Assembly: GCA_005862225.1 (NCBI GenBank)
Contig: SZXV01000002.1
Coordinates: 310,001-374,000 of the forward strand
DNA: 64,000 nucleotides
Direction: 5' to 3'
From: Chlorobium sp.
GTDB lineage: Bacteria > Bacteroidota > Chlorobiia > Chlorobiales > Chlorobiaceae
Position 1 is the stretch's first letter. Each line of letters opens with the position of its first letter. Shown here in pieces: positions 5,463 to 21,782 of this stretch. The notes below the pieces were generated by a model. That model made no database searches and was not told the DNA's origin. It saw nothing but the letters and a program-made list of their open reading frames with translations. The position numbers and the translations under genes were made by a program.

Positions 5463-5499
5463 TTGACGTTGATCAGCACGGATTTCTCGTGCGTGTTTG

Positions 5500-5532
5500 G
5501 AAAGGCGTGTTCGGTAGACACGCCTTTCTCTT
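5500..5532 (+). terminator. Rho-independent terminator after first Cyc2-like gene
   Basis: Perfect 11-bp stem GAAAGGCGTGT / ACACGCCTTTC with a 7-base loop (5511-5517), followed by a pyrimidine-rich tail. It separates this gene from the Rieske operon. Confidence 0.8.
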
Positions 5533-5645
5533 GCTCTCATGACTTTGGTTGTGTTGTGTGAGAGGTGTGCTCATAAACCGGTAAATCCCTGACGAGGTTT
5601 ATGTGCACACCTTTTTTAAGATTGTCCTGACATTCAGCATCATTG

Positions 5646-5661
5646 TGTTGTCGAGACAACA
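5646..5661. promoter_or_regulatory. Palindrome overlapping an upstream Rieske start codon
   Basis: TGTTGTC-GA-GACAACA has perfect 7-bp arms separated by 2 bp. It ends on the first base of the ATG at 5661. It looks like a dimeric repressor operator, or a small RNA hairpin that would mask this start in favour of the ATG at 5712. Confidence 0.4.
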
Positions 5662-6284
5662 TGTTACGTTTAAGAAAAAAGGTCTCAATTGAAAGCAAAA
5701 AAAAAACTGCTATGCAGGATGAAAAAAAGCTCGTAACAGAGCAAAAAAAAGAGATTATTGATCGGGGTGGAACTGAGGATGCCCAGGCGAAGTCAGGCGA
5801 GAGAAGGAAATTTCTGATGAGAGTGGGCTGGGGAAGTCTTGCCGGTTTTCTTGCCATAAACTCGGCGGCTTTTTTGAGGTTCTTTTACCCGAGAGTGCTG
5901 TTTGAACCGCCATCACAGTTTAAGGTTGGTTTTCCGGACGAATATCCTCCGGGCCAAGTCAACTCTCAGTATCAGAGGGAATATGGCACATGGGTTATCC
6001 GTCTTCCTGATGGAGCGTTTTTTGCGATGGAGACGAAGTGCACTCATCTTGGCTGTACGCCAAGCTGGATGGAGTCTCAGAAAAAATTCAAGTGTCCCTG
6101 TCATGGCAGTGGATACTACATCACTGGACTCAATTTTGAAGGTCCCGCACCAAGACCGATGGATCGGTTTAAGATAAGTGTGGCTGAAGATGGTCAGTTG
6201 TTGGTCGACAAGACCATCAAGTTTCCGGGTGTTCCGGGCAAAGAATCAAGTGAGGTTTATCCTCAGAGTTTATTGAGAGTTTGA
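5661..6284 (+). CDS. Rieske [2Fe-2S] iron-sulfur protein of a bc-type complex
   Basis: The cluster-binding boxes CTHLGC (residues 127-132 from this start) and CPCHGSGY (from residue 145) are intact and spaced as in b6f-type Rieske proteins. An RRKFLMRVGW stretch followed by a hydrophobic helix anchors it in the membrane and resembles a twin-arginine signal. It would take electrons from quinol at the Qo site of the cytochrome b encoded three genes downstream. The first about 40 residues are very Lys/Glu-rich. Neither the ATG at 5661 nor the one at 5712 has a clear Shine-Dalgarno sequence, so the start is uncertain. It leads a tight operon reaching at least to 11486. Confidence 0.9.
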   Translation: MLRLRKKVSIESKKKTAMQDEKKLVTEQKKEIIDRGGTEDAQAKSGERRKFLMRVGWGSLAGFLAINSAAFLRFFYPRVLFEPPSQFKVGFPDEYPPGQVNSQYQREYGTWVIRLPDGAFFAMETKCTHLGCTPSWMESQKKFKCPCHGSGYYITGLNFEGPAPRPMDRFKISVAEDGQLLVDKTIKFPGVPGKESSEVYPQSLLRV

Positions 6285-6316
6285 TTGGTATCCGATAACA
6301 GAAATTGTAATGACTC

Positions 6317-6649
6317 ATGGAACCCGATGACAAGATAGAGTCTCCTGTGTCACCCTCTTCACTGAAGATAGTGACCGGAGTCAAAAAACGGGCAGCAGCA
6401 AGAATCATCTCCGAACTCTGTACCGGGTGCAGGATTTGTTTACAGAGCTGTCCATCACACTGCATAACGATCGTTGATTCGGACTTGAACTTTAACGGTA
6501 TAGCCCAGGTCGATGATCGATGTACTGGTTGTAATATTTGTGCTATTGACTGCCCTTGGACTGGCGTTATGATGATAAATCCGGATGGTTCGCGCAAGGA
6601 TGAGGCTGTCTATGCGAAGCAGTTAAAAAAACTTCGCGGCTATCAGTAA
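6317..6649 (+). CDS. 2x[4Fe-4S] ferredoxin-like protein in the bc operon
   Basis: The 110-residue protein has two complete bacterial ferredoxin motifs, CTGCRICLQSCP (C35, C38, C41, C45) and CTGCNICAIDCP (C69, C72, C75, C79), with an extra Cys at 49. There is no signal peptide, so it should sit on the cytoplasmic side. It lies 32 bp after the Rieske gene and 30 bp before cytochrome b6, so it is almost certainly co-transcribed. A dicluster ferredoxin is not a normal subunit of bc1 or b6f complexes. It could give the complex a low-potential cytoplasmic partner (inference). Confidence 0.88.
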   Translation: MEPDDKIESPVSPSSLKIVTGVKKRAAARIISELCTGCRICLQSCPSHCITIVDSDLNFNGIAQVDDRCTGCNICAIDCPWTGVMMINPDGSRKDEAVYAKQLKKLRGYQ

Positions 6650-6679
6650 ACTGTTTAGAACATAAAACGTGACGGGACT

Positions 6680-7453
6680 ATGAAAAGCCTACCAGAGATA
6701 AGTGAAAAGGTCAGAAAAAATCTGATATGGAAATCCATATTCAGAAGGGATTACCGAAATTCCATCAGAGACAGGGCACAGGCTGTTTTCGGTAACGTTT
6801 TTCTCCATCTGCACCCGGTGCAGGTTCGTGAAAGTGCCGTCAAGCTCCGTTTCACATGGGGAATGGGAGGCATAACTTTTTTTGCCTTTATTCTTCTTGT
6901 TATCACTGGTGTTGTTCTGATGTTTTATTACCATCCATCTATTGATCAAGCCTATACCGATATCAAGGATCTTGAGTTTCAGGTGCCCTTTGGTGTCATT
7001 TTGCGCAACCTCCATCGTTGGGGTGCTCACTTCATGGTTATTGTGGTGATGATTCACATGTTTCGTGTGTTTATGACCGGTTCCTATAAAGCCCCTCGCC
7101 AGTTTAACTGGGGCATTGGTGTTTTTCTGCTTGTGCTGACGTTTCTTCTGAGTTTTACTGGCTATCTCACTCCGTGGGATCAGCTCGGCTTCTGGGCGAT
7201 CACCGTTGGCACCAATATGGGCGCTGCGACTCCGCTGCTGGGATATCAGGGCCCCTTCAGTGAATACCTGCACATTACCCCATATAATGATATCCGTTTT
7301 GCGCTGCTTGGTGGCGCCCAGGTTGGCGGAAATGCATTGCTCCGGTCTTACATCTGGCATTGCGTTGCTATTCCGCTGATCTCAATCATCTTGATGTTTG
7401 TTCATTTCTGGCGGGTCAGAAAGGATGGCGGAATTTCAAAACCTCAAAAATAA
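6680..7453 (+). CDS. Cytochrome b6-type subunit (N-terminal half of cytochrome b)
   Basis: The 257-residue protein has four membrane helices and the four haem-ligand histidines: H112 and H126 on one helix, H227 and H242 on another. The 15-residue spacing of the second pair is the b6 type. The Qo-side sequence [13 protein letters not shown] is present. The Cys that binds haem ci in b6f (FYCLGGIT) is replaced by GMGGIT here, so that haem should be absent. Standard Chlorobi cytochrome b is a single unsplit chain, so this split b6/subunit IV arrangement marks a different complex. An N-terminal extension of about 40 residues precedes the first helix. Confidence 0.92.
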
Positions 7454-7473
7454 CAAACAGGGAAGAGTCCAAT

Positions 7474-8358
7474 ATGAATCCATTTATTCAAATCATTACC
7501 CAGCCTGATAATATTGCCATTGTGATCATGATCATCATGGTGACTTTTTTTACAGGATGGGCTTTTCAGCAGGCTTTTGATAATGACAAGCTTCTTGCTG
7601 CCGGGCGTCCCGTGGACGGGGAAAACGACAAGTTTATTGATACGTTCAAACCACTTGTGCGTATTGAGCTGCTCATTGCAATTGTCGTGATGGTGGGGCT
7701 TACTGTATGGTCGATAGCTGTTGATGCTCCGCTCGAGGAGATTGCTAATCCTACAATTACTCCAAACCCGGCAAAGGCTCCGTGGTACTTTCTCGGACTT
7801 CAGGAGTTGCTGGTTTATTTTGATCCATGGCTTGCTGGTGTCGTGTTGCCCTCACTCATCGTTGTCGGTTTACTGGCTATTCCCTATATCGATATCAATC
7901 CAAAAGGGAATGGTTATTATACGTTTGCCGAGAGAAAGTATGCGATTATTATTTTTTCATTCGGCTTTCTTGTGCTTTGGTTATTACTTATTGTTATTGG
8001 CGTCTTTTTCAGAGGTCCCGGATGGTTGTGGTACTGGCCATGGCAGGAGTGGGATCATGCAAGGGTTGTTTTTGAGCCAACCAGAGATTTAACCAGTGTT
8101 ATTGGCATTGATTCACGATCATTACCAGGATTTCTTATTGGAGCCTTTGTTGTTGGTTCATATCTGGCAGGAGGAATGATTGCACCTTACCGGTACTGGA
8201 AAAAAAATAATCCTGAGCTGTTGAGCCAGTTGGGTATGGTTCGGTACATCACCATCATGTTTTTGTTTATCACCATGATGTCCATACCGATCAAAATGGT
8301 TTTAAGGCTGGTTTTCCTGATCAAGTATATATGGATCACCCCCTGGTTTAATGTTTGA
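7474..8358 (+). CDS. Cytochrome b subunit IV-type protein (C-terminal half, extended)
   Basis: The 294-residue membrane protein starts at the ATG at 7474, 20 bp after b6, with GGAAGAG upstream. It contains NPAKAPWYFLGLQELL, the counterpart of the Qo-site PEWY loop, but with the Glu replaced by Pro (APWY). Such variants are known to me from bc-type complexes that carry multihaem cytochromes. After the three helices expected of subunit IV there are further hydrophobic segments (about residues 150-290), making it much longer than plant or cyanobacterial PetD (about 160 residues). It completes the quinol-oxidising core with cytochrome b6. Confidence 0.88.
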   Translation: MNPFIQIITQPDNIAIVIMIIMVTFFTGWAFQQAFDNDKLLAAGRPVDGENDKFIDTFKPLVRIELLIAIVVMVGLTVWSIAVDAPLEEIANPTITPNPAKAPWYFLGLQELLVYFDPWLAGVVLPSLIVVGLLAIPYIDINPKGNGYYTFAERKYAIIIFSFGFLVLWLLLIVIGVFFRGPGWLWYWPWQEWDHARVVFEPTRDLTSVIGIDSRSLPGFLIGAFVVGSYLAGGMIAPYRYWKKNNPELLSQLGMVRYITIMFLFITMMSIPIKMVLRLVFLIKYIWITPWFNV

Positions 8359-8427
8359 TCACAGGTCATTAATTTATTCAGGTATCCGGTAACAGGTCAT
8401 TCTAAAAGTCAAAAAAAACTGTTGAAA

Positions 8428-11043
8428 ATGGCGAATGAGCAGAAAAATAATTCATCCAACAGAGTCTATATCTTTGTTTTCTTTAGTGTAGTTTTACTTG
8501 CGCTCTCTCTGTGGGTGGTATGGGATGACGAGTTTGGCCTGAGACCATGGAAAAAATACCAGCAAGAGTTCAAGACACTGAAGCACGACAAGCTTGAGAG
8601 TGAATACCGCAAGGCTGTTGTTGACTTCCAGAGGTCGGGCGGGCACACACGCCTTGCTGAATTGGAAGCAAGACTGGCCAAAGCGGAAGCAGTCTTTCAG
8701 AGTCCCGCAAATCAGGAGAAGTACAAGCAACTGACAACACAGTTTGATGACATTCATGCAACTGCTGCAAGCAACCAGAAAGAGCTGCAAAATGCTCGTG
8801 GAAAGTTTCTTGAGTCGGAGTATTACTTTACCAAGACACAAAAGCCAGAATACAAGGCCACAATGGATCTTCTGCAGCGGGAGATTGACGCAATAAACCT
8901 GCGTCGAGCTTCGATTCAGAAGAAAGAAGAGGCCTTTAAGAATGCTCTTAATGAGATGACATCGGCGACGGTCAATCTCAAGGCCGAGATTGAGGATATG
9001 AAAAAAGGACTTGAAGAGCTTAAGGAAAAGATTGCAAGTAATGACAAGGTAGCTGTTGAAATAAAGCAGGTACACATCAAGGACATTGACAAGGCTGACC
9101 GCTGCCAGTCATGTCATATAGGTATAGATGGCAAACATCAGGTTTCATCTCTACAGCCCTTCACCAAACACCCGGCGAGCTTTGTCTATCTTGATCATCA
9201 TGACCCGTCAAAGTTTGGATGTACTTTCTGTCATCGCGGACAGGGTCGTGCAACCACTTCTGTCGAAAAAGCACACGGAAAGGTCAAGCACTTTGATGAA
9301 CCTTTGCTTGATGGTGATATGACCCAGACATCATGTCTTAACTGCCATGGTGATATCAAGGGGCTTCGTGGAGCAGAACAGATTGGAATTAGCACTGAGC
9401 TTATTAAAAAATACGGTTGTTACAGTTGTCACAAAATTCCCGGTTATGAGTCAATTGGTGATGTTGGTCCGGTACTCACAGAGGTCGGTTCCAAGGTCAA
9501 TTATTCATGGGCAGTCAATTGGCTGCTGGATCCGAAGAAATACTTTTCAACGGCCCGGATGCCAAAGTTTTTCTTTACACAGGCGCAGGCGGAAGCTATA
9601 GCTGACTATCTGTTCAGTATGTCCGGAACCACCCGTCATGATGTTGATTATGCAAATACTCAACCCAACGCTCAGCTTGTGGAGCAGGGCAAGACGCTGT
9701 GGAGTCAGGCACGCTGTAATCTCTGCCATACTACAGGCGGCAGGGGTGGTAATCATATCAAGGTTTATGCCCCAGATTTGAGCAAAGTGGGCAGTAAGGT
9801 AAACAAGGAGTGGTTATTCAAGTGGCTCAAGAATCCAAATGCCTATTTCCCGGGCACCAAAATGCCTCGTTTCCGCTTTACGGATCAGGAGATCAATGCT
9901 TTGGTCGAATATATCGTCAGCGAGTATAAGGACGATGAAGCAGAAGCCAGGTATGTGCAGCCTGTTGAAATCAAGGCGGCATCGATCAAGAAAGGAAAAG
10001 AGCTGATTCAGCAGTATGGCTGTTATGGTTGTCATAAGCTGCAGGGTATGGAGGAGATGGTGCAGATTGCGCCTTCATTGAAAAGCCAGGGCGTCAGCTT
10101 TCTGAGAAAAGATGAAATGCGTGAAAAGATTGGCACGGAACTTTCGTCAATTGGCAGCAAGCCGCTTGAGATGCTTGATTTTGGAAAGCTTGCCAAAGCA
10201 ATTCCGAACGATCGCTTGAGTTATCTGAAACAAAAGCTGAGAGATCCAAGGGGATTCAGGCTTGGCCTGAGGATGCCGGATTTCCGTCTTTCAGAATCTG
10301 AGGTTAATGAACTGGCAGCAGTGCTCTATGGATTTACCGATGCAAATGTGCCGGTACGTTTCATGGTTCCATCACGCCAGGAATTAGACAAGATGGCAGG
10401 GGTACAAGGGTACAAATTCACTGGTGATTTTGCCAAGGTTATAGCTGATGTAAAGTGTACCAATTGCCATAGTATTAAAGGTATTGGAGCTGATTACGCG
10501 CCTGATCTCTCAATTGCCGGTAGCAAGCTTCAGGAGAAATGGATCCGTAAATTCCTTGCCAATCCTGATGTTATACGACCTCTGCTTCAGCAGATGCCGA
10601 AGCTTGGCCTGACATTGGGCAAGCCAGCGGCAAAGGTGACAATGCCGAAATTTAACCTTGGCAAACAGAGGGTTGAGGATACCAACAAGTCGGATGTTGA
10701 TGTTGTGGTCGACTACTTCCAGCAGGAACTCGTTACAACAGATATTCCGAAGGCAATACCGACGATAACTACCATGGCCCTGCCTGAACAGATCAGCAAG
10801 GGAAAGGCTCTGTACGAATTCAAGGGTTGCAGATCCTGTCACCAGATTGGATTGGATGGCGGCGCTCTTGGGCCTAATTTGTCGGATGTGGGTAACCGGT
10901 TACAGCCCGGGTTTATTTTCAGGCATCTTGAAAATGCCCGCAAATTCAAACCTGATATTGTTGAACCGGATTATGGCTTTACCGAACGGGAAAGAATTTA
11001 TTTGACAAACTTTTTGATGACCCTGAAACTGAACACGAAGTGA
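8428..11043 (+). CDS. Membrane-anchored octahaem c-type cytochrome
   Basis: The 871-residue protein has one N-terminal membrane helix (about residues 10-30), a long charged coiled coil (about 40-215) and eight CXXCH sites at residues 226, 265, 303, 331, 430, 532, 677 and 801. The last five sit in repeated monohaem cytochrome c domains, several ending in RMPKF/KMPRF/RMPDF-type sequences that supply the axial Met. It probably replaces cytochrome c1/f as electron acceptor for the Rieske protein and forms a periplasmic haem wire. A TTG six bases upstream is an alternative start. Its stop overlaps the next gene (TGATG). Confidence 0.9.
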   Translation: MANEQKNNSSNRVYIFVFFSVVLLALSLWVVWDDEFGLRPWKKYQQEFKTLKHDKLESEYRKAVVDFQRSGGHTRLAELEARLAKAEAVFQSPANQEKYKQLTTQFDDIHATAASNQKELQNARGKFLESEYYFTKTQKPEYKATMDLLQREIDAINLRRASIQKKEEAFKNALNEMTSATVNLKAEIEDMKKGLEELKEKIASNDKVAVEIKQVHIKDIDKADRCQSCHIGIDGKHQVSSLQPFTKHPASFVYLDHHDPSKFGCTFCHRGQGRATTSVEKAHGKVKHFDEPLLDGDMTQTSCLNCHGDIKGLRGAEQIGISTELIKKYGCYSCHKIPGYESIGDVGPVLTEVGSKVNYSWAVNWLLDPKKYFSTARMPKFFFTQAQAEAIADYLFSMSGTTRHDVDYANTQPNAQLVEQGKTLWSQARCNLCHTTGGRGGNHIKVYAPDLSKVGSKVNKEWLFKWLKNPNAYFPGTKMPRFRFTDQEINALVEYIVSEYKDDEAEARYVQPVEIKAASIKKGKELIQQYGCYGCHKLQGMEEMVQIAPSLKSQGVSFLRKDEMREKIGTELSSIGSKPLEMLDFGKLAKAIPNDRLSYLKQKLRDPRGFRLGLRMPDFRLSESEVNELAAVLYGFTDANVPVRFMVPSRQELDKMAGVQGYKFTGDFAKVIADVKCTNCHSIKGIGADYAPDLSIAGSKLQEKWIRKFLANPDVIRPLLQQMPKLGLTLGKPAAKVTMPKFNLGKQRVEDTNKSDVDVVVDYFQQELVTTDIPKAIPTITTMALPEQISKGKALYEFKGCRSCHQIGLDGGALGPNLSDVGNRLQPGFIFRHLENARKFKPDIVEPDYGFTERERIYLTNFLMTLKLNTK

Positions 11044-11486
11044 TGCAAAAAACCTTACAAATCAGGAAGTTCGCCATTTTCGCAACTCTCTCAGTGCTTG
11101 TGATTGCGGGATGCGGCAAGAAACCGAACCAGTCAGGGAAAGCTGATTCCACAAAGACGATGGCGGCAGTTGATTCTGCCGCCACAGTGACAAAGGTCCC
11201 TTTTGCTCTTAAGGAAGGAAAAAGGCTCTTTTTGCACTATTGTGCGGTCTGTCACGGAGAAACAGGTGATGGGGGGGGGCAGTATTATGGTTTGACACCA
11301 TCGCCAGCCAATTTTACCGATAAAGCGTTTATGAAGAGCTTGTCGAATGAGAGGCTTTTTAAGGCGATAATGGAAGGATCAGCCTCGGTGGGCAAGTCCA
11401 ATATGTGTCCGCCGTGGGGGAAGTCTTTTCAACCTGAGGAGCTGGAGTTCATTGTGACCTATATCAGAACTCTTTCCGGTAAGTGA
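11043..11486 (+). CDS. Monohaem cytochrome c lipoprotein
   Basis: The 147-residue protein has a lipoprotein signal with lipobox VIAGC (C24), a flexible Ala/Ser/Thr/Lys linker and one cytochrome c domain with C67-A-V-C70-H71. NMCPPWG near residue 120 is the likely axial-Met region. ATG 11043 shares a base with the stop of the octahaem gene, so the two are translationally coupled and probably act together. It would be a membrane-tethered electron shuttle in the periplasm. Lipid anchoring to inner or outer membrane cannot be told from the sequence. Confidence 0.88.
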   Translation: MQKTLQIRKFAIFATLSVLVIAGCGKKPNQSGKADSTKTMAAVDSAATVTKVPFALKEGKRLFLHYCAVCHGETGDGGGQYYGLTPSPANFTDKAFMKSLSNERLFKAIMEGSASVGKSNMCPPWGKSFQPEELEFIVTYIRTLSGK

Positions 11487-11559
11487 TTGTTATATTGTAT
11501 TATGTTTTTAGTTTAAACGATTTAATTTTTTGAAAAAATCAAAAACAATGGAGTCAGAC

Positions 11560-12162
11560 ATGTTTAGCTTCAAAAGCAAATCATTGAAAAGCGCGCTTTT
11601 AATGACCTGTTTCGGGTTCATCACCTCAACTGCTTTTTGTGGAGGAACAGTAACAGGGACAGTTGATGCTACTTTGGCAAAGTATAAAAAAGACGCAGTA
11701 GTTTACCTGAAAGGCGTCAAAGGGCCAGTTGCTCCCCAGAAGGCAGTGATGGATCAGAAAAATCTTGTTTTTCTACCCCATGTGCTTGCAGTCCCTGCGG
11801 GTTCAACTGTTGATTTTATAAACAGTGATAAAGTTAATCACAATATATTTTCTGCGGATGCCTGCAAAAAATTTAATCTTGGAACATACAATCCGGGAAT
11901 GTCAAAGTCAGTTCTTTTTGATAAGCCCTGTGTTGTGAATCTTCTGTGCAATGTGCATTCCGAAATGTCGGGTTTTGTTGTTGTTACTGAAAATCCCTAT
12001 TTCAGTGTAAGCGGTGCCGATGGCAAGTTTACTATAAAGAATGTTCCTGCGGGTACTTATGAAATATCCGCATGGAGCGAAAAGCTCAAGCCTCAGGGGA
12101 AGACAATGGTTACCGTTGCTGAAGGGCAGACTGCCACTGTTGCTCTTAAAATGGCAAAATAA
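11560..12162 (+). CDS. Exported cupredoxin with carboxypeptidase-regulatory-like domain
   Basis: A signal peptide (to about residue 28, TAFCGG) is followed by a plastocyanin-like domain with a complete type 1 copper set: H94, then C130-N-V-H133-S-E-M136, the Cys+3/+6 spacing of amicyanin-type proteins. Residues about 145-198 form a beta-sandwich of the carboxypeptidase regulatory type (GKFTIKNVPAGTYEISAW). GGAG 6 bp before the ATG at 11560 fixes the start. It is the last gene before a hairpin at 12185. Rusticyanin, also a cupredoxin, works with Cyc2 in Acidithiobacillus; a parallel role here is inference. Confidence 0.82.
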   Translation: MFSFKSKSLKSALLMTCFGFITSTAFCGGTVTGTVDATLAKYKKDAVVYLKGVKGPVAPQKAVMDQKNLVFLPHVLAVPAGSTVDFINSDKVNHNIFSADACKKFNLGTYNPGMSKSVLFDKPCVVNLLCNVHSEMSGFVVVTENPYFSVSGADGKFTIKNVPAGTYEISAWSEKLKPQGKTMVTVAEGQTATVALKMAK

Positions 12163-12184
12163 TACGCTCTGCTCTAAGTAAAAT

Positions 12185-12216
12185 TAAAGAGGTACCTGAA
12201 TAAAGGTGCCTCTTTA
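12185..12216 (+). terminator. Hairpin terminator after the cupredoxin gene
   Basis: A 12-bp stem (TAAAGAGGTACC / GGTGCCTCTTTA, one T-G wobble) with an 8-base loop lies 22 bp after the stop. The following ATCGTTGT is only weakly T-rich. It likely ends the transcript begun at the Rieske gene. Confidence 0.65.
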
Positions 12217-12316
12217 TCGTTGTATCAATCCTATCATAAGGGGTAACAGTGGTGATGAGTCAAGCTCATTATTTACTGTTATGCCTATTTTTACCATTCG
12301 ACAAACTTATATCATT

Positions 12317-12679
12317 ATGAAAACTTCAGTTCAGGTTTGTTGTTTTATTGCCGCCTTTTTTTGTTCAACACCATTGCTTGTCAATGCAACGCCTGATCCA
12401 GCAAGTGTTGAACTGCGGGAAAAATATAATCTTGATAAGGGAAAAAAGGTGTACGAAAAGGTGTGTGCAAACTGTCATGGCACCGGGGTTTTGGAAGCGC
12501 CTGAGTTTTGTAATATTTCTGCCTGGAAGCCAAGAATTGCAAAAGGGATGGCGGTACTGGTGCAACACACAATTCAGGGTTTCAGGCAGATGCCGCCAAA
12601 GGGTGGGGATACTGAATTCAATGAAGCTGAAGATGCTAATGCAGTTGCCTATATGGTTGATCAGTGTCTGATACATTAA
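12317..12679 (+). CDS. Cytochrome c5-family periplasmic monohaem cytochrome
   Basis: The 120-residue product has a signal peptide (cleavage near VNA, residue 24), C50-A-N-C53-H54 and the c5 signature QMPPKGG with axial M92, followed by AVAYM near the C-terminus. C65 and C117 could form a disulfide. It lies just upstream of the second Cyc2-like gene. From memory, c5-type cytochromes neighbour cyc2 in other Chlorobia, which makes it the prime candidate for the periplasmic electron acceptor from that porin-cytochrome. The start is the ATG at 12317; a longer in-frame extension upstream has no signal-like character. Confidence 0.87.
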   Translation: MKTSVQVCCFIAAFFCSTPLLVNATPDPASVELREKYNLDKGKKVYEKVCANCHGTGVLEAPEFCNISAWKPRIAKGMAVLVQHTIQGFRQMPPKGGDTEFNEAEDANAVAYMVDQCLIH

Positions 12680-12837: not shown

Positions 12838-12943
12838 ATATTGTATTGTTGTTGTAAATAAATAAGCGTGAACGTTGCTTTAAGGTATTTATTTGCTTGC
12901 CATTCAATTTCATCGATATAAATCATTAAACTCATTACGTGTT

Positions 12944-14215
12944 ATGTCGCTAAAGAAACAACGTATTTTATTAGTTTTGATCGGAGCGTTTGTTCCTTTA
13001 TTAGGTTTTGTCCCGCAGGTGTCAGCAACCCCAGCCTTTTCAAGGCAGACAGGACAGTCATGCGCTGCATGCCATTTCCAGAGATATCCATTACTCAATG
13101 CCTATGGTCGGTCGTTCAAGGCAAACGGATATACGCAAACAGGCAAACAGGAGACTATTGAAGATAACTCACTCTCTCTTCCAGTAACACTTAATGCGGC
13201 AGTCGTCACCAAGCTCAGGTATGTGAAAACCAATGGAGTGTCAACAGATGGAACAAACGGGGGCGAGTTTAATATGCCTGATGAAGCAAGTCTTTTTCTT
13301 GCCGGCAGGGTGGCAAAAAACATCGGATATCAGGCTGATATCAGTCTGGGCAGAGACAAGTCTCTATTGGCGGGCTTCAAGATGCCCTTTGTTTTTCCCC
13401 AGAATGACTTTATCATCAGCGCCATTCCGTTTTTCACTGATACTCAAGGGCCAGCGTACGGTTACGAACTCCTGAACACGGGTGCTGTAGAGTTTTCCCG
13501 ACCGTTTGAAAATGCAGCAGAGACTTCCGCACAACAATATCTTGTTCAGGATGCGAATGAAGCGAACAACGGCACAACTGGTGTTGCCCTGGTTTTCCAT
13601 CACAAGTATGGGTATTTAAGCTATACTCCATACATTACTAATAATACAAATGACCTTGCAAACTCAACGCCACATAAATTCATGAGCTATGTAAGGGGCG
13701 TTGTTACTCCTGCAAAAGTAGGTAACTTTGAGCTTGCTGCCGGATTCCAGCTTTGGAAGGGGACTTCAAGTATTGATGTTTCTGGGTCTGCAGGCCTTAC
13801 AAAAAAAGCCGATGTATGGGCAATTGATGGCCAAGCTCAGGGTAAGGTTGGAAGTTATCCTCTTGGTGTTTATGTGGCTTATGGTAGTGCAAAGAAATCG
13901 GATGCAGCATCGGGAGCTACACCGAACGACTTTAATGAAAGTCCTTTAGCAAATAAAACAGCCTTCACCATTGCGGCCGATATGGGAATCGTTCCATCAA
14001 AACTTGGTCTTGGCCTTGCTTACAGAATAGCCCATAATCCCAATAATGGAAGTACCGTAAGTGATGGCGAAAATGCAGTGACTCTTGCAGCAACCTATAA
14101 TGTTGCTAAAAATGTTCTTCTGCAAGTGAACCACAGTTTCTATTCCTATGGTGCAGATGTAGAAACTCCAGATGGAAACCAAAAGACATCACTTGTTCTA
14201 TTTAGTGCATTTTGA
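12944..14215 (+). CDS. cyc2: Outer-membrane porin-cytochrome, Cyc2 type (second copy)
   Basis: From the ATG at 12944 the product has 423 residues: signal peptide ending near VSA (residue 28), TPAFSRQTGQS, haem site C40-A-A-C43-H44, then YPLLNAYGRSFKANGY, a close match to the Cyc2 fused-cytochrome signature. The remaining 350 residues look like a 16-strand-type beta-barrel and end in aromatic Phe (LFSAF). Cyc2 accepts electrons from dissolved Fe(II) at the cell surface. The c5 cytochrome directly upstream supports this role. Similar N-termini exist in porin-cytochromes of unproven function, so the substrate is inferred. There is no Shine-Dalgarno sequence at 12944; a TTG at 12893 would add 17 residues. 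Confidence 0.85.
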   Translation: MSLKKQRILLVLIGAFVPLLGFVPQVSATPAFSRQTGQSCAACHFQRYPLLNAYGRSFKANGYTQTGKQETIEDNSLSLPVTLNAAVVTKLRYVKTNGVSTDGTNGGEFNMPDEASLFLAGRVAKNIGYQADISLGRDKSLLAGFKMPFVFPQNDFIISAIPFFTDTQGPAYGYELLNTGAVEFSRPFENAAETSAQQYLVQDANEANNGTTGVALVFHHKYGYLSYTPYITNNTNDLANSTPHKFMSYVRGVVTPAKVGNFELAAGFQLWKGTSSIDVSGSAGLTKKADVWAIDGQAQGKVGSYPLGVYVAYGSAKKSDAASGATPNDFNESPLANKTAFTIAADMGIVPSKLGLGLAYRIAHNPNNGSTVSDGENAVTLAATYNVAKNVLLQVNHSFYSYGADVETPDGNQKTSLVLFSAF

Positions 14216-14785: not shown

Positions 14786-15304
14786 ATGTGTACTTTTCAG
14801 TTGAAGAAATTAAGATCGTCGCTTTTGTTAGCATTTCTTTTTTGTTTGAGTTTCAGCGCTAACTCTTATGCTCTTGATGCCGGAAGCAAGGCGCCTGATT
14901 TTGAACTTCCCGGTGTGCAAGGTACGGTGAAACTTTCGAGCACCGCAGGTTCGGTTGTTTATGTTGATTTCTGGGCATCCTGGTGTGGGCCTTGCAAGCA
15001 ATCGTTTCTCTGGATGAATGCCATGCAGGACAAGTACAGGGCCCAGGGATTGCAAGTTATCGGTGTGAATCTTGATGCTAAGTCTGATGATGCTAAAAAG
15101 TTTTTATCGCAGACGCTGGCTCACTTTACTGTTGCTTTTGATTCAAAAGGTGGCACGCCAAAAAATTATGGAGTAAAGGGAATGCCGACCAGTTTTCTAG
15201 TTGGACGGGATGGCAAAATTATCTTTCAGCATTTAGGCTTTAAAGAGGCTGATCGCGAAAAACTTGAACAAGAAATTAAGGCAGCACTGGAGGCAAAAAA
15301 ATGA
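14786..15304 (+). CDS. TlpA-like exported thioredoxin-fold protein
   Basis: The 172-residue product has a signal peptide or anchor (to about residue 29, SYA) and an AhpC/TSA-type thioredoxin fold with the redox motif WC67GPC70K. GMPTSFLVGRDG carries the cis-Pro loop. Proteins of this kind reduce disulfides in periplasmic partners. The next gene overlaps it by 4 bp (ATGA) and encodes a small lipoprotein with a C-terminal Cys-Gly-Cys, a natural substrate candidate. DsbD, which feeds electrons to such proteins, is encoded at 19884 in the same gene run. Confidence 0.88.
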   Translation: MCTFQLKKLRSSLLLAFLFCLSFSANSYALDAGSKAPDFELPGVQGTVKLSSTAGSVVYVDFWASWCGPCKQSFLWMNAMQDKYRAQGLQVIGVNLDAKSDDAKKFLSQTLAHFTVAFDSKGGTPKNYGVKGMPTSFLVGRDGKIIFQHLGFKEADREKLEQEIKAALEAKK

Positions 15305-15537
15305 AAAAAAATGTCATGCTCAAACCCGTTTACGCTTTTCTGTTGCTGATGCTTGCTTTGTCAGGTTGCTCGATCGGGCAGGCTGTCCAGCCTTGGGAAA
15401 AAGAGACGCTTGCAAAACCTGAAATGACCTTTGAGGGCGATCCGCTTGATACCAAGTATACCGAACACATCTACAGCAGCAAAGAGGCGGCTTCCGGTGG
15501 CGCCGGGGTAGGTGGTGGTGGATGCGGTTGCAATTAA
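15301..15537 (+). CDS. Small DUF4266-type lipoprotein with Cys-Gly-Cys tail
   Basis: The 78-residue product has a lipobox LSGC (C23), a middle with PWEKETLAKPEM, a conserved-looking EHIYSSKEAA stretch and the tail GGGGC75GC77N. This matches the DUF4266 family as I recall it. It is coupled by overlap to the TlpA gene and followed 27 bp later by the DUF3570 gene. The function of the family is unproven; the tail suggests metal, disulfide or cofactor chemistry. Confidence 0.8.
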   Translation: MKKNVMLKPVYAFLLLMLALSGCSIGQAVQPWEKETLAKPEMTFEGDPLDTKYTEHIYSSKEAASGGAGVGGGGCGCN

Positions 15538-15564
15538 CGTAATTTTAATTTTCAGGATACTCTT

Positions 15565-16734
15565 ATGAAACCAGTCCCGACAAAAAAAACTCATGTTATA
15601 GGCGCGGCAATTTTTGCTGCGGCAATGGCACTGCCCTTCTCCAGCACTGCGTTTGCAGAAGCGGCTCCAGAAAAGGGTATTGTTGCTTTTAAATACCTTA
15701 ATTACGAGGATAGCCAGCCCGGTCTCGACAGGATGGATATTAATGCCTACACAGTTTCGGCCATGGCTCCGATAGCAGGCAAGTGGTCGATCAGCACATC
15801 CTACACCTACGATTCTGTTTCTGGTGCATCACCCTCGTATCATAGCGCTGTTGAGCCGGAGATGGTTTCTGGTGCTTCAAAAATAAGCGAACGCCGAAAT
15901 GCCGTGGATCTGAGCGTTACCCGTTATCTGCCACAGGGCAGTTTGACTGCTGGAACCAGCTATTCCAAAGAAAACGACTATATTTCACGTGGTTATTCTT
16001 TTCAGGGAAGTTTTTCGACAGAGGATAAGAATACAACATTTACTCTTGGTGGCAGTTATACTTCCGACTCTATTTTTCCTTCAATAGATGATACAGCCTT
16101 TTTTGAAAAGAGAGTTGTTGCTGGTTTGTTTGGTATCACCAAGGTGTTGACAAAGAGGGATATTGTGCAGTTGAATGTTGGCTATTCAAATGGTAACGGA
16201 TACTTCAGTGATCCTTACAAGTTGTATGACAGAAGACCTGAGAAGCGGCAGAGCACGACGGTTATGACCAGATGGAACCATCATTTTGATGGCATTGACG
16301 GCACGAGTCATCTTTCGTATCGCTATTATACCGACACTTTTGGCATCAGGGCTCATACCTTTGGCCTGGAATATGTTCAGCCGGTTGTGAATGATTGGAC
16401 AATTATCCCCTCGGTAAGGTACTATTCTCAAACCGCCGCTGACTTTTATTTGCCAGTAGATCCAACTGTACCCTCGGGTTTGCCTCATGAGGCGGCTGTT
16501 CGATTATATGACCCGTTGTTACCATCAGTTTCGTTAGATCAGCGTTTGTCCGCGTTCGGAGCAGTTACGCTTGGTATCAAGGTTGAAAAAAGGATTGCCA
16601 AAGATTGGTTGGTTGATGCGAAGTTTGAGAGTTATGAACAGCGTCCAGGTTGGAGTATAACCGGTGGAGGTGACTCTGGGCTTGCACCATTCAGAGCAAA
16701 ATTCATCCAGTTTGGCATCTTACGTGATTTTTAG
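15565..16734 (+). CDS. DUF3570 outer-membrane protein, possible flavinylation target
   Basis: The 389-residue product has a signal peptide (ending AFA near residue 31) and a long series of amphipathic strands, ending in Phe (GILRDF), as in outer-membrane barrels. Between residues 83 and 108 there are two stretches, DSVSGASPSY and EMVSGASKIS, that resemble the FMN-attachment motif Dxx(S/T)GA(S/T)xx(S/T) used by ApbE enzymes. An apbE gene lies downstream at 18968. The family is uncharacterised to my knowledge. TlpA, DUF4266 and DUF3570 form one compact operon that ends at a terminator at 16763. Confidence 0.78.
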   Translation: MKPVPTKKTHVIGAAIFAAAMALPFSSTAFAEAAPEKGIVAFKYLNYEDSQPGLDRMDINAYTVSAMAPIAGKWSISTSYTYDSVSGASPSYHSAVEPEMVSGASKISERRNAVDLSVTRYLPQGSLTAGTSYSKENDYISRGYSFQGSFSTEDKNTTFTLGGSYTSDSIFPSIDDTAFFEKRVVAGLFGITKVLTKRDIVQLNVGYSNGNGYFSDPYKLYDRRPEKRQSTTVMTRWNHHFDGIDGTSHLSYRYYTDTFGIRAHTFGLEYVQPVVNDWTIIPSVRYYSQTAADFYLPVDPTVPSGLPHEAAVRLYDPLLPSVSLDQRLSAFGAVTLGIKVEKRIAKDWLVDAKFESYEQRPGWSITGGGDSGLAPFRAKFIQFGILRDF

Positions 16735-16762
16735 TTCTCCTATAGCGTAGATTTGCTATTAC

Positions 16763-16804
16763 AGCCCTTTTTCATTATAGAATGGAGAGGGCTTTATTTT
16801 TTTT
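16763..16804 (+). terminator. Rho-independent terminator after the DUF3570 gene
   Basis: AGCCCT (16763-16768) pairs with AGGGCT (16788-16793); the stem continues imperfectly inward (TTTTCATT against AATGGAG) around an ATAG loop. A strong T-run follows at 16794-16804. Confidence 0.8.
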
Positions 16805-16899
16805 CTGTATTTGGAGGCCTCATGAACAACAGTAGACTAACGCTAAAATTTTCGCAGAGTATTCTCTCGCCTGATTATTGTTACCTCAACATCATCATT

Positions 16900-16943
16900 T
16901 TTAAGCAACATTTAAGCTGCGTTTAATAGCCATTTAATGCTAA
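16900..16943 (+). promoter_or_regulatory. Four perfect-register 11-bp TTTAA repeats (site 4)
   Basis: TTTAAGCA (16900), TTTAAGCT (16911), TTTAATAG (16922) and TTTAATGC (16933) recur every 11 bp with no drift. TAATCT at 16950 is a plausible -10 box, 17 bp from the start of the last repeat, as at sites 1 and 2. This is the clearest of the four arrays. Confidence 0.68.
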
Positions 16944-17137
16944 AGGAAGTAATCTTCGTAAGGATTCAATAAACCAAATCCGTGTTTTTATCTCGGAGCT
17001 TTTCGCTTATAAACAAACTGTTCATCCTCTTGAATTGGACAGCTTGTTGTTGTAAACGCTCTTTGAGAGGTTTGACTCGGAAAGTCATGGATTATTTACA
17101 AATAACTTATTTTAAATAGCGAAGGAGATTATTAACA

Positions 17138-18850
17138 ATGGCTGTTTCATGGACGGGATCCACTGCTAATGACTTTATTGATTTGACGTATTGGGGTCAG
17201 CCTCCCAGTGGTGGGAATATTTATAATATTGATGGGAAGGCTGGAAACGATACGTTTTCTTTGCAAAGTGGTAGCCTAACATACGATAAAAGATTTGACT
17301 ATAAAGGTGGAGCAGGGTTTACAATCGCACCAGCGGATGTCAATCAGGTTATTGTTGTATCAGGTGCAAGTACAAAGGGTGGTGGGGTTTTTACCTTCAA
17401 TCTGACAAGCATAGAAACACTTGTAATATGGGATTCAACTATTAACAATTACAGGACAATAACGCTGAATTATGGTCCGGTGGCCGATACCACTCCTCCT
17501 GTTTTTAGTTCGGCATCAGTGAACGGTTCGACACTGGTCATGACTTATACTGATACCAATAACCTCGATGCGGCTTATCCACCACTTTTCACCGCATTCA
17601 ACGTCTCCAATCATGCGGTAACCGGCGTTACCGTCGATGGTGTTGCCAAAACGGTAACGCTGACACTTGGCAGCGCCGTAGCCTACGGCGAAGCGGTGAC
17701 GGTTTCCTATACCGATCCAAGTTCGGGCAATGATGTCAGTGCGATTCAGGATCTCGCAGGCAATGATGCCGCGACACTGGCTGCGACAGCAGTGACTAAC
17801 AATACTCCTGCACCTGCCGACACGACGGCTCCGGTCTTTGTCTCCGCAGGAGTGAATGGCACGACTCTTGTGATGACGTACAGCGATACCAATAATCTCG
17901 ATGCAACTCATCCACCACTTTCCACCGCATTCAACGTTTCCAATCATGCAGTAACCGGCGTCGCCGTCGATGGTGTTGCCAAAACGGTAACGCTGACACT
18001 TGGTACCGCCGTTGTCTACGGCGAAGCGGTGACGGTCTCCTATACCGACCCTACAACGGGCAATGATGTCAGTGCGATTCAGGATCTCGCCGGCAATGAT
18101 GCTGCGACCCTGATCGGCCGTTCAGTGACCAACAACACCCCGGTTCCCGACACGACGCCTCCGACATTAGACTCAGCGTCCGTGAATGGCACGACGCTGG
18201 TGATGACGTTCTTGGATGCCAATAACCTCGATGCCGCTCATCCACCGCTTGCCAGCGCATTCAGCGTCACCGGTCATACGGTCAATACTGTCGCTGTTGA
18301 TGCAAGTGCCCATACGGTCACTCTGACGCTTAATACTTCTGTCACTCAAAATGAAGTGGTAACAGTACACTATACAGATCCAACAGTCAATAATGACGTC
18401 AGCGCGATTCAGGATGTTGCTGGTAATGATGCAGCTTCCTTTACGACGCAGGTTGGTCCAGATACTCAAGCGCCAACAGTTGTGTCATTCAGCCCTCTCG
18501 ATAACGCTACTGGTATTGCGGTTAACAGTGATATTGTTCTTGCTTTCAGTGAACCGGTTACAGGAACCATTGAGATTAAAACTGCCGCAGGAACGCTTGT
18601 GCCTGCTGTGCTGACAGGATCTGGCACAACGACACTCACTGTTAATCCAACGACCGATCTGACAAACAGCACACACTACATTGTCACCACTCATGTCGTT
18701 GATGGGGCCGGTAACTCTTATGTCGAGGCGACTCCTTATGATTTTACTACGGCAGATCCCTATGTGGCCAGTAGTGGTGGTGGCGGCGGCGCTGGAGTTG
18801 CTGTCGCAGGGGTTGGAGGGCTTGCTCTGCTTGCATGGGTGCTCTTTTAA
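17138..18850 (+). CDS. SwmB/Ig-like repeat surface protein
   Basis: The 570-residue protein has no signal peptide. Residues 1-116 form a Gly/Asp-rich lead domain. Three 104-111-residue repeats follow (from residues 117, 228 and 338), each with the pattern DTT.P...S..VNG.TLVMT, as in cyanobacterial SwmB-type repeats. Residues about 442-540 look like a bacterial Ig-like (Big_5) domain. The C-terminus is a Gly run plus a hydrophobic segment ending AWVLF, with no basic cluster, so it is not a standard GlyGly-CTERM. A strong GAAGGAGA site precedes the ATG. Type I secretion or surface anchoring seems likely. Its own phased-repeat promoter suggests co-regulation with the cytochromes. Confidence 0.75.
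   Translation: MAVSWTGSTANDFIDLTYWGQPPSGGNIYNIDGKAGNDTFSLQSGSLTYDKRFDYKGGAGFTIAPADVNQVIVVSGASTKGGGVFTFNLTSIETLVIWDSTINNYRTITLNYGPVADTTPPVFSSASVNGSTLVMTYTDTNNLDAAYPPLFTAFNVSNHAVTGVTVDGVAKTVTLTLGSAVAYGEAVTVSYTDPSSGNDVSAIQDLAGNDAATLAATAVTNNTPAPADTTAPVFVSAGVNGTTLVMTYSDTNNLDATHPPLSTAFNVSNHAVTGVAVDGVAKTVTLTLGTAVVYGEAVTVSYTDPTTGNDVSAIQDLAGNDAATLIGRSVTNNTPVPDTTPPTLDSASVNGTTLVMTFLDANNLDAAHPPLASAFSVTGHTVNTVAVDASAHTVTLTLNTSVTQNEVVTVHYTDPTVNNDVSAIQDVAGNDAASFTTQVGPDTQAPTVVSFSPLDNATGIAVNSDIVLAFSEPVTGTIEIKTAAGTLVPAVLTGSGTTTLTVNPTTDLTNSTHYIVTTHVVDGAGNSYVEATPYDFTTADPYVASSGGGGGAGVAVAGVGGLALLAWVLF
17486..18460 (+). repeat. Three tandem approx. 330-bp coding repeats
   Basis: Units start at 17486, 17819 and 18149. 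The first two are very similar at DNA level over long stretches (for example the segments around 17600-17680 and 17935-18015), pointing to recent duplication. The third is more diverged. Confidence 0.85.
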
Positions 18851-18967
18851 GAGTTATATGATCATCAGGGTGATCAGATGACAGGATGAAAAAGCAATTT
18901 GACTCGGAAATCAGCAATCGGTCAAGTCAAACCTGGATATTCTAAAGAGAAAAATGAAGGCGTGGAT

Positions 18968-19858
18968 ATGGAGATTTATCGTATAGGTTTTGATGCTTTG
19001 GGAGGACATGGCGAGGTTGTTCTTGTGTCGGAGAGCAAAAAAAAGGCCCATGCCATAGCAGACCTTGCATTGAAAGAGATAGGAAGAATCGAATTCAAGT
19101 ACTCCCGTTATCGTCCTGAGAGCATTGTTTCCCGGATCAATGCTGCGGCCGGTCTTGAATTTGTTGAGTATGATGAAGAGACGGCATTCTTGTTTCAGTA
19201 TGCCGATACACTTTATGATAACAGTGGTGGTGTTTTCGATATTACATCAGGAGGCTTACGCCATGTGTGGGATTTCGGCAAGTCACTTTTGCCTGATCCG
19301 GTAAAACTTGCTGAACAGCTTGAGCTTATTGGCTGGAACAGGGTGGAGAGGCAGGATAAAGCTGTTCGTTTGCCCGTCGCCGGGATGGAGATTGATTTTG
19401 GTGGATTCGGTAAGGAGTATGCCGCTGACCGGGCGGCAGCGGTTGTTTATGAACAAGGTGGCAGGTATGGCTATGTTAATCTCGCGGGTGATATTCGGCT
19501 TGTTGGTCCAAAGCCAGACGGCAGCCCATGGATTATCGGGATTCAGGATCCGCGCCATAAGGAGCGCACTATTGCTTCGATTCCTCTCCATGCCGGAGCT
19601 CTCGCGACGAGTGGTGACTATGAACGCTTCTTTGAAGTGGATGGTCATCGCTACTGTCACATTATTCATCCCCGGAGTGGCTATCCTGTGACTTTCTGGA
19701 GATCGGTAACCGTTGTCGCTCCTTTGGCTCTTACCGCCGGAAGCTGCTCGACCATTGCCATGCTCAAAGAGGCTGATGGATTGTCTTTTCTTGAAAAGAC
19801 AGGGATGGGATACCTTGCGGTGGACCAATTTGGCAAGATATATCACAGAAACTCATAA
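18968..19858 (+). CDS. apbE: ApbE-family FMN transferase, apparently without signal peptide
   Basis: The 296-residue product (start ATG 18968, weak AAGG upstream) shows ApbE features: SRYRPESIVSRIN, GVFDITSGGLRHVWDFG, the substrate loop DFGGFGKEYAADRA near residue 150, NLAGDIRLVG, ATSGDYERFF and HIIHPRSGYP. ApbE transfers FMN from FAD to Ser/Thr of target proteins. Most are exported lipoproteins; this one has no signal sequence or lipobox from any in-frame start, so it may act in the cytoplasm. Its likeliest partner here is the DUF3570 protein at 15565. Confidence 0.9.
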   Translation: MEIYRIGFDALGGHGEVVLVSESKKKAHAIADLALKEIGRIEFKYSRYRPESIVSRINAAAGLEFVEYDEETAFLFQYADTLYDNSGGVFDITSGGLRHVWDFGKSLLPDPVKLAEQLELIGWNRVERQDKAVRLPVAGMEIDFGGFGKEYAADRAAAVVYEQGGRYGYVNLAGDIRLVGPKPDGSPWIIGIQDPRHKERTIASIPLHAGALATSGDYERFFEVDGHRYCHIIHPRSGYPVTFWRSVTVVAPLALTAGSCSTIAMLKEADGLSFLEKTGMGYLAVDQFGKIYHRNS

Positions 19859-19883
19859 AATACTTACTATTCGTCTCAAATAA

Positions 19884-21782
19884 ATGTTTAAAGCAAAAAA
19901 TATGAACCTATTTTTTTTCAGGCGTACTCCACTCTTTTTTGCTGTGTTTCTGGTGTTTTGCCTCAGGGTGAGTACCGTCCTTGCTGCTGATTTTCTTGAT
20001 CCTGATCAGGCGTTCAAACTGACGGCGGAGTTGAAGAATCCACGTCTTGTGACCCTCCATTGGGAAATCGCAAAGGCTTACAAGTTGTATCGAGACAAGG
20101 TTTCCGTTAGTGTTGAAAACGGTCAGGTTCTGGTGAAAACATCTGCTTTGCCAAAAGGTATCACCTTTACTGATCCGACTACTGGTGAGAAGCTTGAGAT
20201 ATATCATGATAATCTCAATGTTGATGTGCCTCTTGCCAAGGATGGAGGAACATTTACCCTGAATGTGGGGTACCAGGGTTGTGCCGAGGATGGTCTCTGT
20301 TATCCGCCGATCACAAAACTCTTCACGGTTGACCCGAACAGGCCGGGGGCGCTCATGATTGCTGGAGACCAGCCCGGAACTCCTTCAGTTACTGAAACGG
20401 GTATTGCACCGACACCGGCGGCTGCTCCGGTTTCGTCCATCAGGAGTGATGCCACATCTTCAAAAGTGAGTTCGCCTGATAATGATCTTTCTCTTGCTAC
20501 AGCCACTCTTGCAGGTGGAAGTTTGTGGAAGATTTCTCTTGCTTTTCTTGCGTTTGGACTGCTTCTGTCGTTTACTCCATGTGTTTTACCTATGGTGCCT
20601 ATTCTTTCTTCCATCATTGTGGGAGAGGGGGACGTAACACGACGCCGCAGTTTTCTTATGGCGCTGGCCTATTGTCTCGGGATGGCATTGGTCTATACGT
20701 CACTTGGTGTTGCGGCCGGACTTGCCGGAGAGGGTCTTTCCGGAGCATTGCAGAAACCCTGGGTTCTGGTGATGTTTGCGTTGCTTCTTGTTTTACTCTC
20801 TCTTTCCATGTTTGATGTTTATCAACTGCAGTTGCCAACCTCACTGCAAAGCAAGCTCGGCAAGGCTTCAGGAGGGTTGAAGCGCGGGCGTTTTGTCGGT
20901 GTATTTTTCATGGGCGCGTTATCGGCGCTTATTGTTGGTCCATGTGTGGCCGCACCGCTTGCAGGAACTCTTGTCTATATCAGTCAGACTCAGGATGTGC
21001 TTCTTGGTGGTCTGGCTCTCTTTTCGATGGCAACAGGCATGAGTGTTCCTTTATTGCTTGTCGGTTTATCGGCTGGTAGTCTGCTGCCAAAAGCGGGCGC
21101 CTGGATGATCGGTGTGAAATATGTTTTCGGTCTTCTTCTGATTGCCGTTGCGATATGGATGGTTTCACCTATTCTCACCGTTCCTGTTCAGATGCTTTTG
21201 TGGGGAGCTTTCGCCATACTTTGCGCGGTTTTTCTTGGAATTTTTGAGGCATCTTCAGGAAAAGCGTCAATAGCACAGCGCTTTGGCAAAACGCTTGGTT
21301 TGTTCCTTTTTGTTATAGGAGGAATGGAACTTGTTGGTGCGGCTTCTGGTGGCACAAATGTTCTTGAGCCGCTGTCGCATATTCGCGGAGGCGAGAGTGC
21401 AGTGTCAGCAGATAACGAGAAAATCAGCTTTACTCCCATTCGTACGACAGGGGAGTTGGATCAGGCGCTTCAATCAGCAAAAAAACCGGTCATGCTTGAT
21501 TTTTATGCGGACTGGTGTGTTGCCTGCAAGGAACTGGACAAGTTCACTTTTCATGATCCGAAGGTTATGGAACAGTTTAAAAATGTTGAGTTGTTGCGTG
21601 TTGATGTGACAGCAAACGGGGATGATCAGCGTGCTTTAATGAAGCGGTTCGGTCTTTTCGGGCCTCCAGGCATCATTTTTTTTGATGCCGGCGGCAAAGA
21701 AATTCCTGGAAGCAGAATTGTCGGTGTTCTTGATGCTCGTGCTTTTTTTGATCATTTCAACAAGTATATATCGGGGAAATAA
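19884..21782 (+). CDS. dsbD: Thiol:disulfide interchange protein DsbD
   Basis: This 632-residue protein has the full three-part DsbD layout. There is a signal peptide (ending LAA near residue 34) and an N-terminal immunoglobulin-like domain with the Cys pair in GCAEDGLCYPP. An eight-helix core carries the membrane cysteines C233 (FTPCVLP) and C354 (GPCVAAP). A C-terminal thioredoxin domain holds the redox motif WC545VAC548K. DsbD moves electrons from cytoplasmic thioredoxin to periplasmic TlpA-like proteins and apocytochromes. It follows apbE by 25 bp and ends at a strong terminator, so it closes the redox gene run. Confidence 0.95.
   Translation: MFKAKNMNLFFFRRTPLFFAVFLVFCLRVSTVLAADFLDPDQAFKLTAELKNPRLVTLHWEIAKAYKLYRDKVSVSVENGQVLVKTSALPKGITFTDPTTGEKLEIYHDNLNVDVPLAKDGGTFTLNVGYQGCAEDGLCYPPITKLFTVDPNRPGALMIAGDQPGTPSVTETGIAPTPAAAPVSSIRSDATSSKVSSPDNDLSLATATLAGGSLWKISLAFLAFGLLLSFTPCVLPMVPILSSIIVGEGDVTRRRSFLMALAYCLGMALVYTSLGVAAGLAGEGLSGALQKPWVLVMFALLLVLLSLSMFDVYQLQLPTSLQSKLGKASGGLKRGRFVGVFFMGALSALIVGPCVAAPLAGTLVYISQTQDVLLGGLALFSMATGMSVPLLLVGLSAGSLLPKAGAWMIGVKYVFGLLLIAVAIWMVSPILTVPVQMLLWGAFAILCAVFLGIFEASSGKASIAQRFGKTLGLFLFVIGGMELVGAASGGTNVLEPLSHIRGGESAVSADNEKISFTPIRTTGELDQALQSAKKPVMLDFYADWCVACKELDKFTFHDPKVMEQFKNVELLRVDVTANGDDQRALMKRFGLFGPPGIIFFDAGGKEIPGSRIVGVLDARAFFDHFNKYISGK

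Follow-up and report, generated by a model that had tools for sequence, protein, structure and literature searches.

Porin-cytochrome conduits such as MtrCAB and Cyc2 place redox cofactors at an outer-membrane barrel. The fumarate reductase of Klebsiella pneumoniae, the substrate of a cytosolic ApbE, is an FMN_bind-type protein. A further ApbE substrate, DUF3570, was established in 2021 within a cluster of DsbD, thioredoxin, DUF4266, ApbE and DUF3570 genes (Meheust et al. 2021, eLife, PMC8238504). For C. luteolum, that paper reports that the DUF3570 protein co-expressed with its cognate ApbE is flavinylated on two [S/T]GA[S/T] motifs, that the flavin is abolished only when the serines of both motifs are changed, and that the flavin is still on the protein after its denaturing recovery from the insoluble pellet; the electron chain published there runs as far as the flavin. 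The words 'beta-barrel' and 'porin' are absent from the text, 'outer membrane' appears once, on siderophore transporters, and DUF3570 is not assigned to the outer membrane (PMC8238504). As for the enzyme, most ApbEs are exported, and the cytosolic ones named in a 2025 review are those acting on fumarate reductase (PMC12052999).

The window, by which we mean the whole stretch of 64,000 nucleotides analysed here, belongs to a 2.5 Mb Chlorobiaceae genome in which a genome-wide search found one copy of DUF3570. From 14786 to 21782, genes for a TlpA-like thioredoxin, DUF4266, DUF3570, an SWM-repeat protein, ApbE and DsbD follow one another on the + strand (Table 1). This is a DsbD/thioredoxin/DUF4266/ApbE/DUF3570 flavinylation cluster: the DsbD-type system is complete, and the locus shares with the one of Meheust et al. 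the ApbE, DUF3570, DUF4266, thioredoxin-like and DsbD genes, the two [S/T]GA[S/T] motifs and, here by prediction, DUF3570 as the ApbE substrate. DUF4266 adjoins DUF3570 in nearly all loci, and the TlpA-like thioredoxin is a member of most. The sequence-only reading of this DNA had noted two back-to-back motifs, DSVSGASPSY and EMVSGASKIS, at residues 83-108 of the DUF3570 protein and an ApbE in the same gene run; the motifs are present exactly as quoted, and a PF02424 match on the same strand (18899-19858) bears out the enzyme. It overlooked the TlpA-like thioredoxin, the DUF4266 lipoprotein and DsbD of the cluster, as well as a third SGAS, in the SWM-repeat protein (nt 17360-17371). The flavinylated barrel that it proposed is supported, with the site conserved, ApbE linked and a close homologue flavinylated on both motifs (PMC8238504). 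As a new kind of redox protein it did not hold, the flavinylation of DUF3570 being published (PMC8238504). What computation adds is a pair of outward-facing sites, a movable second site, a leaderless ApbE and an SGAS-bearing, probably secreted partner; the parts of PMC8238504 that treat these clusters mention neither a leaderless ApbE, nor the swap of the second site between two loop slots (L1 and L2b), nor the SWM/RTX protein.

Table 1. Features of the flavinylation cluster and of the cytochrome genes upstream of it (window positions).
Feature	Position	Strand	Remarks
Second porin-cytochrome-like protein	4191-5462		CYTCHAGFP near N-terminus; no Pfam match
Alternative bc-like complex	5643-12679		Rieske, ExtP/ExtQ-like b cytochromes, 873-aa multi-heme protein, cupredoxin, mono-heme cytochromes
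Cyc2-like porin-cytochrome	12893-14215		440 aa; N-terminal RQTGxxCxxCH, barrel-like rest
TlpA/ResA-like periplasmic thioredoxin	14786..15304	+	WCGPC; Pfam Redoxin/AhpC-TSA
DUF4266 small lipoprotein	15301..15537	+	PF14086 E 3e-24; lipobox LSGC; C-terminal GGGGCGCN
DUF3570 outer-membrane barrel	15565..16734	+	389 aa; Sec signal peptide 1-31; PF12094 E 1.4e-67, 228.8 bits (cut-off 25)
Flavin site L2a, DSVSGASPSY, residues 83-92	15811..15834 (D83-SVSGAS-P90)	+	SGAS = residues 86-89, nt 15820-15831; predicted acceptor Ser89
Flavin site L2b, EMVSGASKIS, residues 99-108	15859..15888	+	SGAS = residues 102-105, nt 15868-15879; predicted acceptor Ser105
SWM-repeat/Big_5 protein	17138..18850	+	PF13753, PF13205; without Sec signal
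Unannotated N-terminal domain (NTD) of the SWM protein	17138..17485	+	SGAS = residues 75-78, nt 17360-17371; candidate new ApbE substrate
ApbE, leaderless subfamily	18968..19858	+	likely start ATG 18968; PF02424 E 8.7e-71, 239 bits (cut-off 25.6)
DsbD, thiol electron exporter	19884..21782	+	PF02683/PF11412; NCBIfam DsbD E 1e-171

We examined the conservation of the SGAS stretches in 136 non-redundant DUF3570 proteins, 115 of them from Chlorobiaceae or Proteobacteria. The first slot (L2a) carries [ST]GA[ST] in 115/115 of these, whereas the second site lies in loop 2 (L2b) in 73, in loop 1 (L1) in 25 and is missing from 17. Outside the three loop slots, the motif occurs only twice in the 55,499 residues of the 136 homologues. 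Across Bacteroidota DUF3570, at about 21% overall identity, D83, A88 and S89 are kept in at least 90% of the proteins; the two positions are occupied by TSAS and SSAS in other Bacteroidota members, and by VSAAS and SSAS in three remoter relatives. On the basis of these alignments, a chance origin of the motifs is ruled out, and flavins on Ser89 and Ser105 of the window protein are predicted from conservation together with the C. luteolum homologue. Moreover, L1 and L2b never occur together among the homologues with a second site (0/98; raw p 2e-14, a Fisher value that overstates independence because the swap amounts to about three changes on a tree built without the motif columns). Independent-contrast tests of this swapping did not reach significance, the events being too few. 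In a DUF3570 tree for which no root was inferred, the Chlorobiaceae proteins are nested among betaproteobacterial ones, which suggests transfer between phyla. Several Chlorobiaceae clusters (L041, L046, L048, L049, L062 and L073) contain tandem DUF3570 genes, up to four of them in L073.

We then asked where these sites lie in the protein. A search by sequence found no PDB relatives of DUF3570. The AlphaFold2 model, built from 78 homologues, is a 16-stranded barrel (mean pLDDT 91.3, pTM 0.88), and Foldseek against the PDB returned outer-membrane barrels as top matches (OmpG, FadL, CymA, PelB). The barrel is closed with an even number of strands, and the protein has a signal peptide and a C-terminal Phe (it ends in RDF), as expected of an outer-membrane beta-barrel. 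With both ends periplasmic, the model has inner turns of 2-6 residues and outer loops that reach 41; short inner turns and long outer loops are the usual barrel pattern. Strand 3 has the first SGAS at its outer end, and the second immediately precedes strand 4, which places the two at or within outer loop 2 (mature residues 57-76, precursor 88-107). When a homologue of the other layout was modelled, its extra motif fell in outer loop 1. Burial of the SGAS segments in the barrel wall, which would have spoken against the sequence-only reading, is not seen in the predicted structure. Both flavin sites are therefore extracellular in the modelled barrel, at or in a loop whose pLDDT falls under 50 at mature residues 63-74, so that the flavin geometry is approximate. 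Unlike MtrCAB and Cyc2, the protein lacks cysteines and heme motifs, its predicted cofactors being covalent FMN. A profile search found no FMN_bind (PF04205) match in it.

The enzyme itself departs from what is usual. The open frame of ApbE extends from a TTG at 18899, and an in-frame stop (TGA, 18887-18889) lies just ahead, leaving no room for a leader. Judged by reading frames and hydropathy, the window frame has no signal peptide, lipobox or hydrophobic stretch, and the ApbE core begins about ten residues past the conserved Met. Throughout Chlorobiaceae and Proteobacteria the enzyme starts in this short way, with M-x-x-F-R-F-x-F-x-A-M; in the homologues L112, L115 and L147, short hydrophobic stretches lie upstream of the conserved start. 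The genome contains one ApbE by profile search, and neither FMN_bind nor DUF2271 was found in it. The co-occurrence of ApbE and DUF3570 was followed across 86 genomes of the family, where N-termini were read directly for most leaderless ApbEs and the others were assigned from the length of the open frame and the absence of FMN_bind: 63 have both DUF3570 and a leaderless ApbE, 4 only DUF3570, 2 only the leaderless ApbE, and 17 lack both. The two exceptions are G040, whose cluster reaches the contig end, and G205. An ApbE with a lipoprotein leader (for example MAHFFRHILLGLLPLSALLSC) is present in 11 of the 86, and exactly those 11 have FMN_bind. Both kinds coexist in G075, the leaderless one beside DUF3570 and the lipoprotein near an FMN_bind gene (L052, L111). 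The active site of the subfamily reads GKEYA, against mostly GKGYA elsewhere, and towards the C-terminus AGS (against ADA) takes the place of the canonical AD(A/G) metal motif throughout, including L052 of G075. We take G075 to be probably C. luteolum. If so, these changes would be compatible with activity, since the enzyme of that species was active, and the published substrate would have the loop 1 plus loop 2 layout, the L2b site of the window then following from its position.

A leaderless ApbE together with an exported substrate departs from the pattern of PMC12052999. Klebsiella ApbE likewise has no signal peptide, but its fumarate reductase stays cytosolic (PMC12052999), whereas DUF3570 is exported. 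The missing leader suggests that flavinylation probably precedes export; moreover, once the barrel is inserted, its outer loops would be out of reach of a periplasmic enzyme, which also points to loading before export. We therefore propose, with a probability of roughly 0.6, a single explanation that joins cytosolic flavinylation before export, surface flavins, a flavin on the NTD of the SWM protein and an electron path leading to them. It builds on a fold and site positions obtained by prediction, and on a missing leader, a co-occurrence and a site swapping read from sequence. In the cytosol, the leaderless ApbE would load FMN onto the still unfolded precursor of DUF3570, which would then pass through Sec export into the outer membrane; the same ApbE would probably flavinylate the SGAS of the NTD, and the SWM/RTX protein would leave by type I secretion. 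A more detailed version, which we put forward tentatively as rather less likely than not, has one cytosolic ApbE serving two exit routes, the Sec barrel and the type I protein, so as to form an FMN pair at the barrel mouth whose second member comes either from the barrel's own loop or from the docked partner. If this is true, FMN is attached ahead of export and travels through the Sec and type I systems, contrary to the reported extracytosolic flavinylation of exported flavoproteins, and green sulfur bacteria and many betaproteobacteria possess heme-free surface redox cofactors. Surface location, partner and timing would be additions to the published chain.

The partner resembles RTX/SWM type I surface proteins in having no Sec leader, GNDT-like motifs, Big_5 and SWM or RTX repeats. 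With these repeats, no Sec leader and an exporter in the genome (two HlyD adaptors of type I secretion), it is probably a type I secretion substrate, and a protein that bypasses the periplasm in this way fits a cytosolic ApbE. No Pfam match was found for its first 115 residues and no PDB relative of the NTD by sequence. Where RTX/SWM proteins usually have a DG(T/N)D stretch, this NTD has SGAS, and Ser78 is nearly invariant in the alignment. One could imagine that this SGAS serves as a structural turn in an RTX-like module instead of binding flavin, an option that falls only a little short of an even bet. Indeed, Chlorobiaceae NTD sites have no Asp at -3, and SGSS, SGTS or AGAT stands there in place of SGAS in a few linked copies. 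However, by counts made by eye, [ST]GA[ST] is found in 38/41 Chlorobiaceae copies linked to the DUF3570/ApbE cluster and in 0/22 relatives elsewhere; of the latter, two are strong, with SGSS and SGTI, and the 20 weaker RTX-module ones are DG(T/N)D-like. Betaproteobacterial copies, some with RTX calcium repeats, carry a full DSVSGASxxxH, almost identical to the barrel's DSVSGASPxYH. In addition, the NTD SGAS accompanies barrels whose second site has been lost: among Proteobacteria, clusters with single-site barrels contain an NTD partner in 11/11 cases, 9 with [ST]GAS, against 2/33 with two-site barrels, both without SGAS, a pattern that rests on 3-4 independent contrasts, none contrary, so that Fisher values overstate its independence. 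Chlorobiaceae partners, unlike the proteobacterial ones, often accompany two-site barrels. Several Chlorobiaceae genomes (e.g. G063, G052 and G106) lack the partner and keep the leaderless ApbE with DUF3570, so the barrel is the only known ApbE substrate there. On sequence grounds, the NTD thus seems to be a candidate new ApbE substrate; if it is one, it adds a class beyond FMN_bind, DUF2271 and DUF3570. Many SWM partners (here at 18760-18847) end in a Gly/Ser-rich stretch followed at the extreme C-terminus by a hydrophobic tail, GVGGLxLLAWxLF, which resembles a sorting or anchoring signal.

Concerning the source of electrons, we infer within the preferred explanation a path in which cytosolic thioredoxin would reduce DsbD, DsbD the thiols of TlpA and of the DUF4266 CxC, and electrons would then cross the barrel to the surface flavins. 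Alternatively, the surface flavins may take electrons from outside, as in phototrophic donor oxidation, with DsbD and TlpA merely maintaining cysteines or cytochromes. This reversal of direction is credible but on the doubtful side. The cytochrome-rich bc-like complex with its porin-cytochromes (4191-12679) and the cytochrome assembly genes CcsA and ResB (1396-3428) speak in its favour, whereas non-phototrophs too keep TlpA, DUF4266 and ApbE together with DUF3570. Homologues of the 4191-5462 protein occur near DUF3570 in 17 loci, and parts of the bc-like set recur there in 14-18 other loci. The barrel had also been described as lying next to porin-cytochromes; this is real in the window, but the idea that DUF3570 is generally linked to the Cyc2-like gene was rejected, homologues of that gene lying near DUF3570 in just 4 other loci.

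Returning to the timing of flavinylation, the published model might hold unchanged, DUF3570 being flavinylated outside the cytosol by an ApbE that reaches the periplasm by a route invisible in the sequence. Every classic exported substrate receives its flavin from an ApbE that is itself exported (PMC12052999). Moreover, the ApbEs of flavobacterial DUF3570 clusters have leaders, from which it follows that the DUF3570 system can work with a periplasmic enzyme and that cytosolic timing is not universal. For the window we nevertheless consider this unlikely: in Chlorobiaceae and Proteobacteria the DUF3570-linked enzymes lack a leader, lipoprotein leaders being kept by those ApbEs of the family that are linked to FMN_bind, and the flavin sites face outward. 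Finally, the leaderless ApbE might act on a flavoprotein of the cytosol, as known cytosolic ApbEs do with fumarate reductase in Klebsiella (PMC12052999), DUF3570 being an incidental neighbour with its SGAS unmodified in vivo. This is very improbable in view of a genome devoid of FMN_bind, of the strict co-occurrence of ApbE with DUF3570, of the direct reaction of the C. luteolum pair (PMC8238504), and of an in-frame pattern match in the window that falls in GltB, whose FMN is non-covalent.

Rival ApbE substrates were sought genome-wide with the pattern D..[ST]GA[ST]..[ST], which gave 7 matches. The GltB segment (40119-40147) matches the ApbE motif perfectly but lies in a cytosolic enzyme whose FMN is non-covalent. 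One further true match to the pattern is DQETGATPLS (C8:23459).
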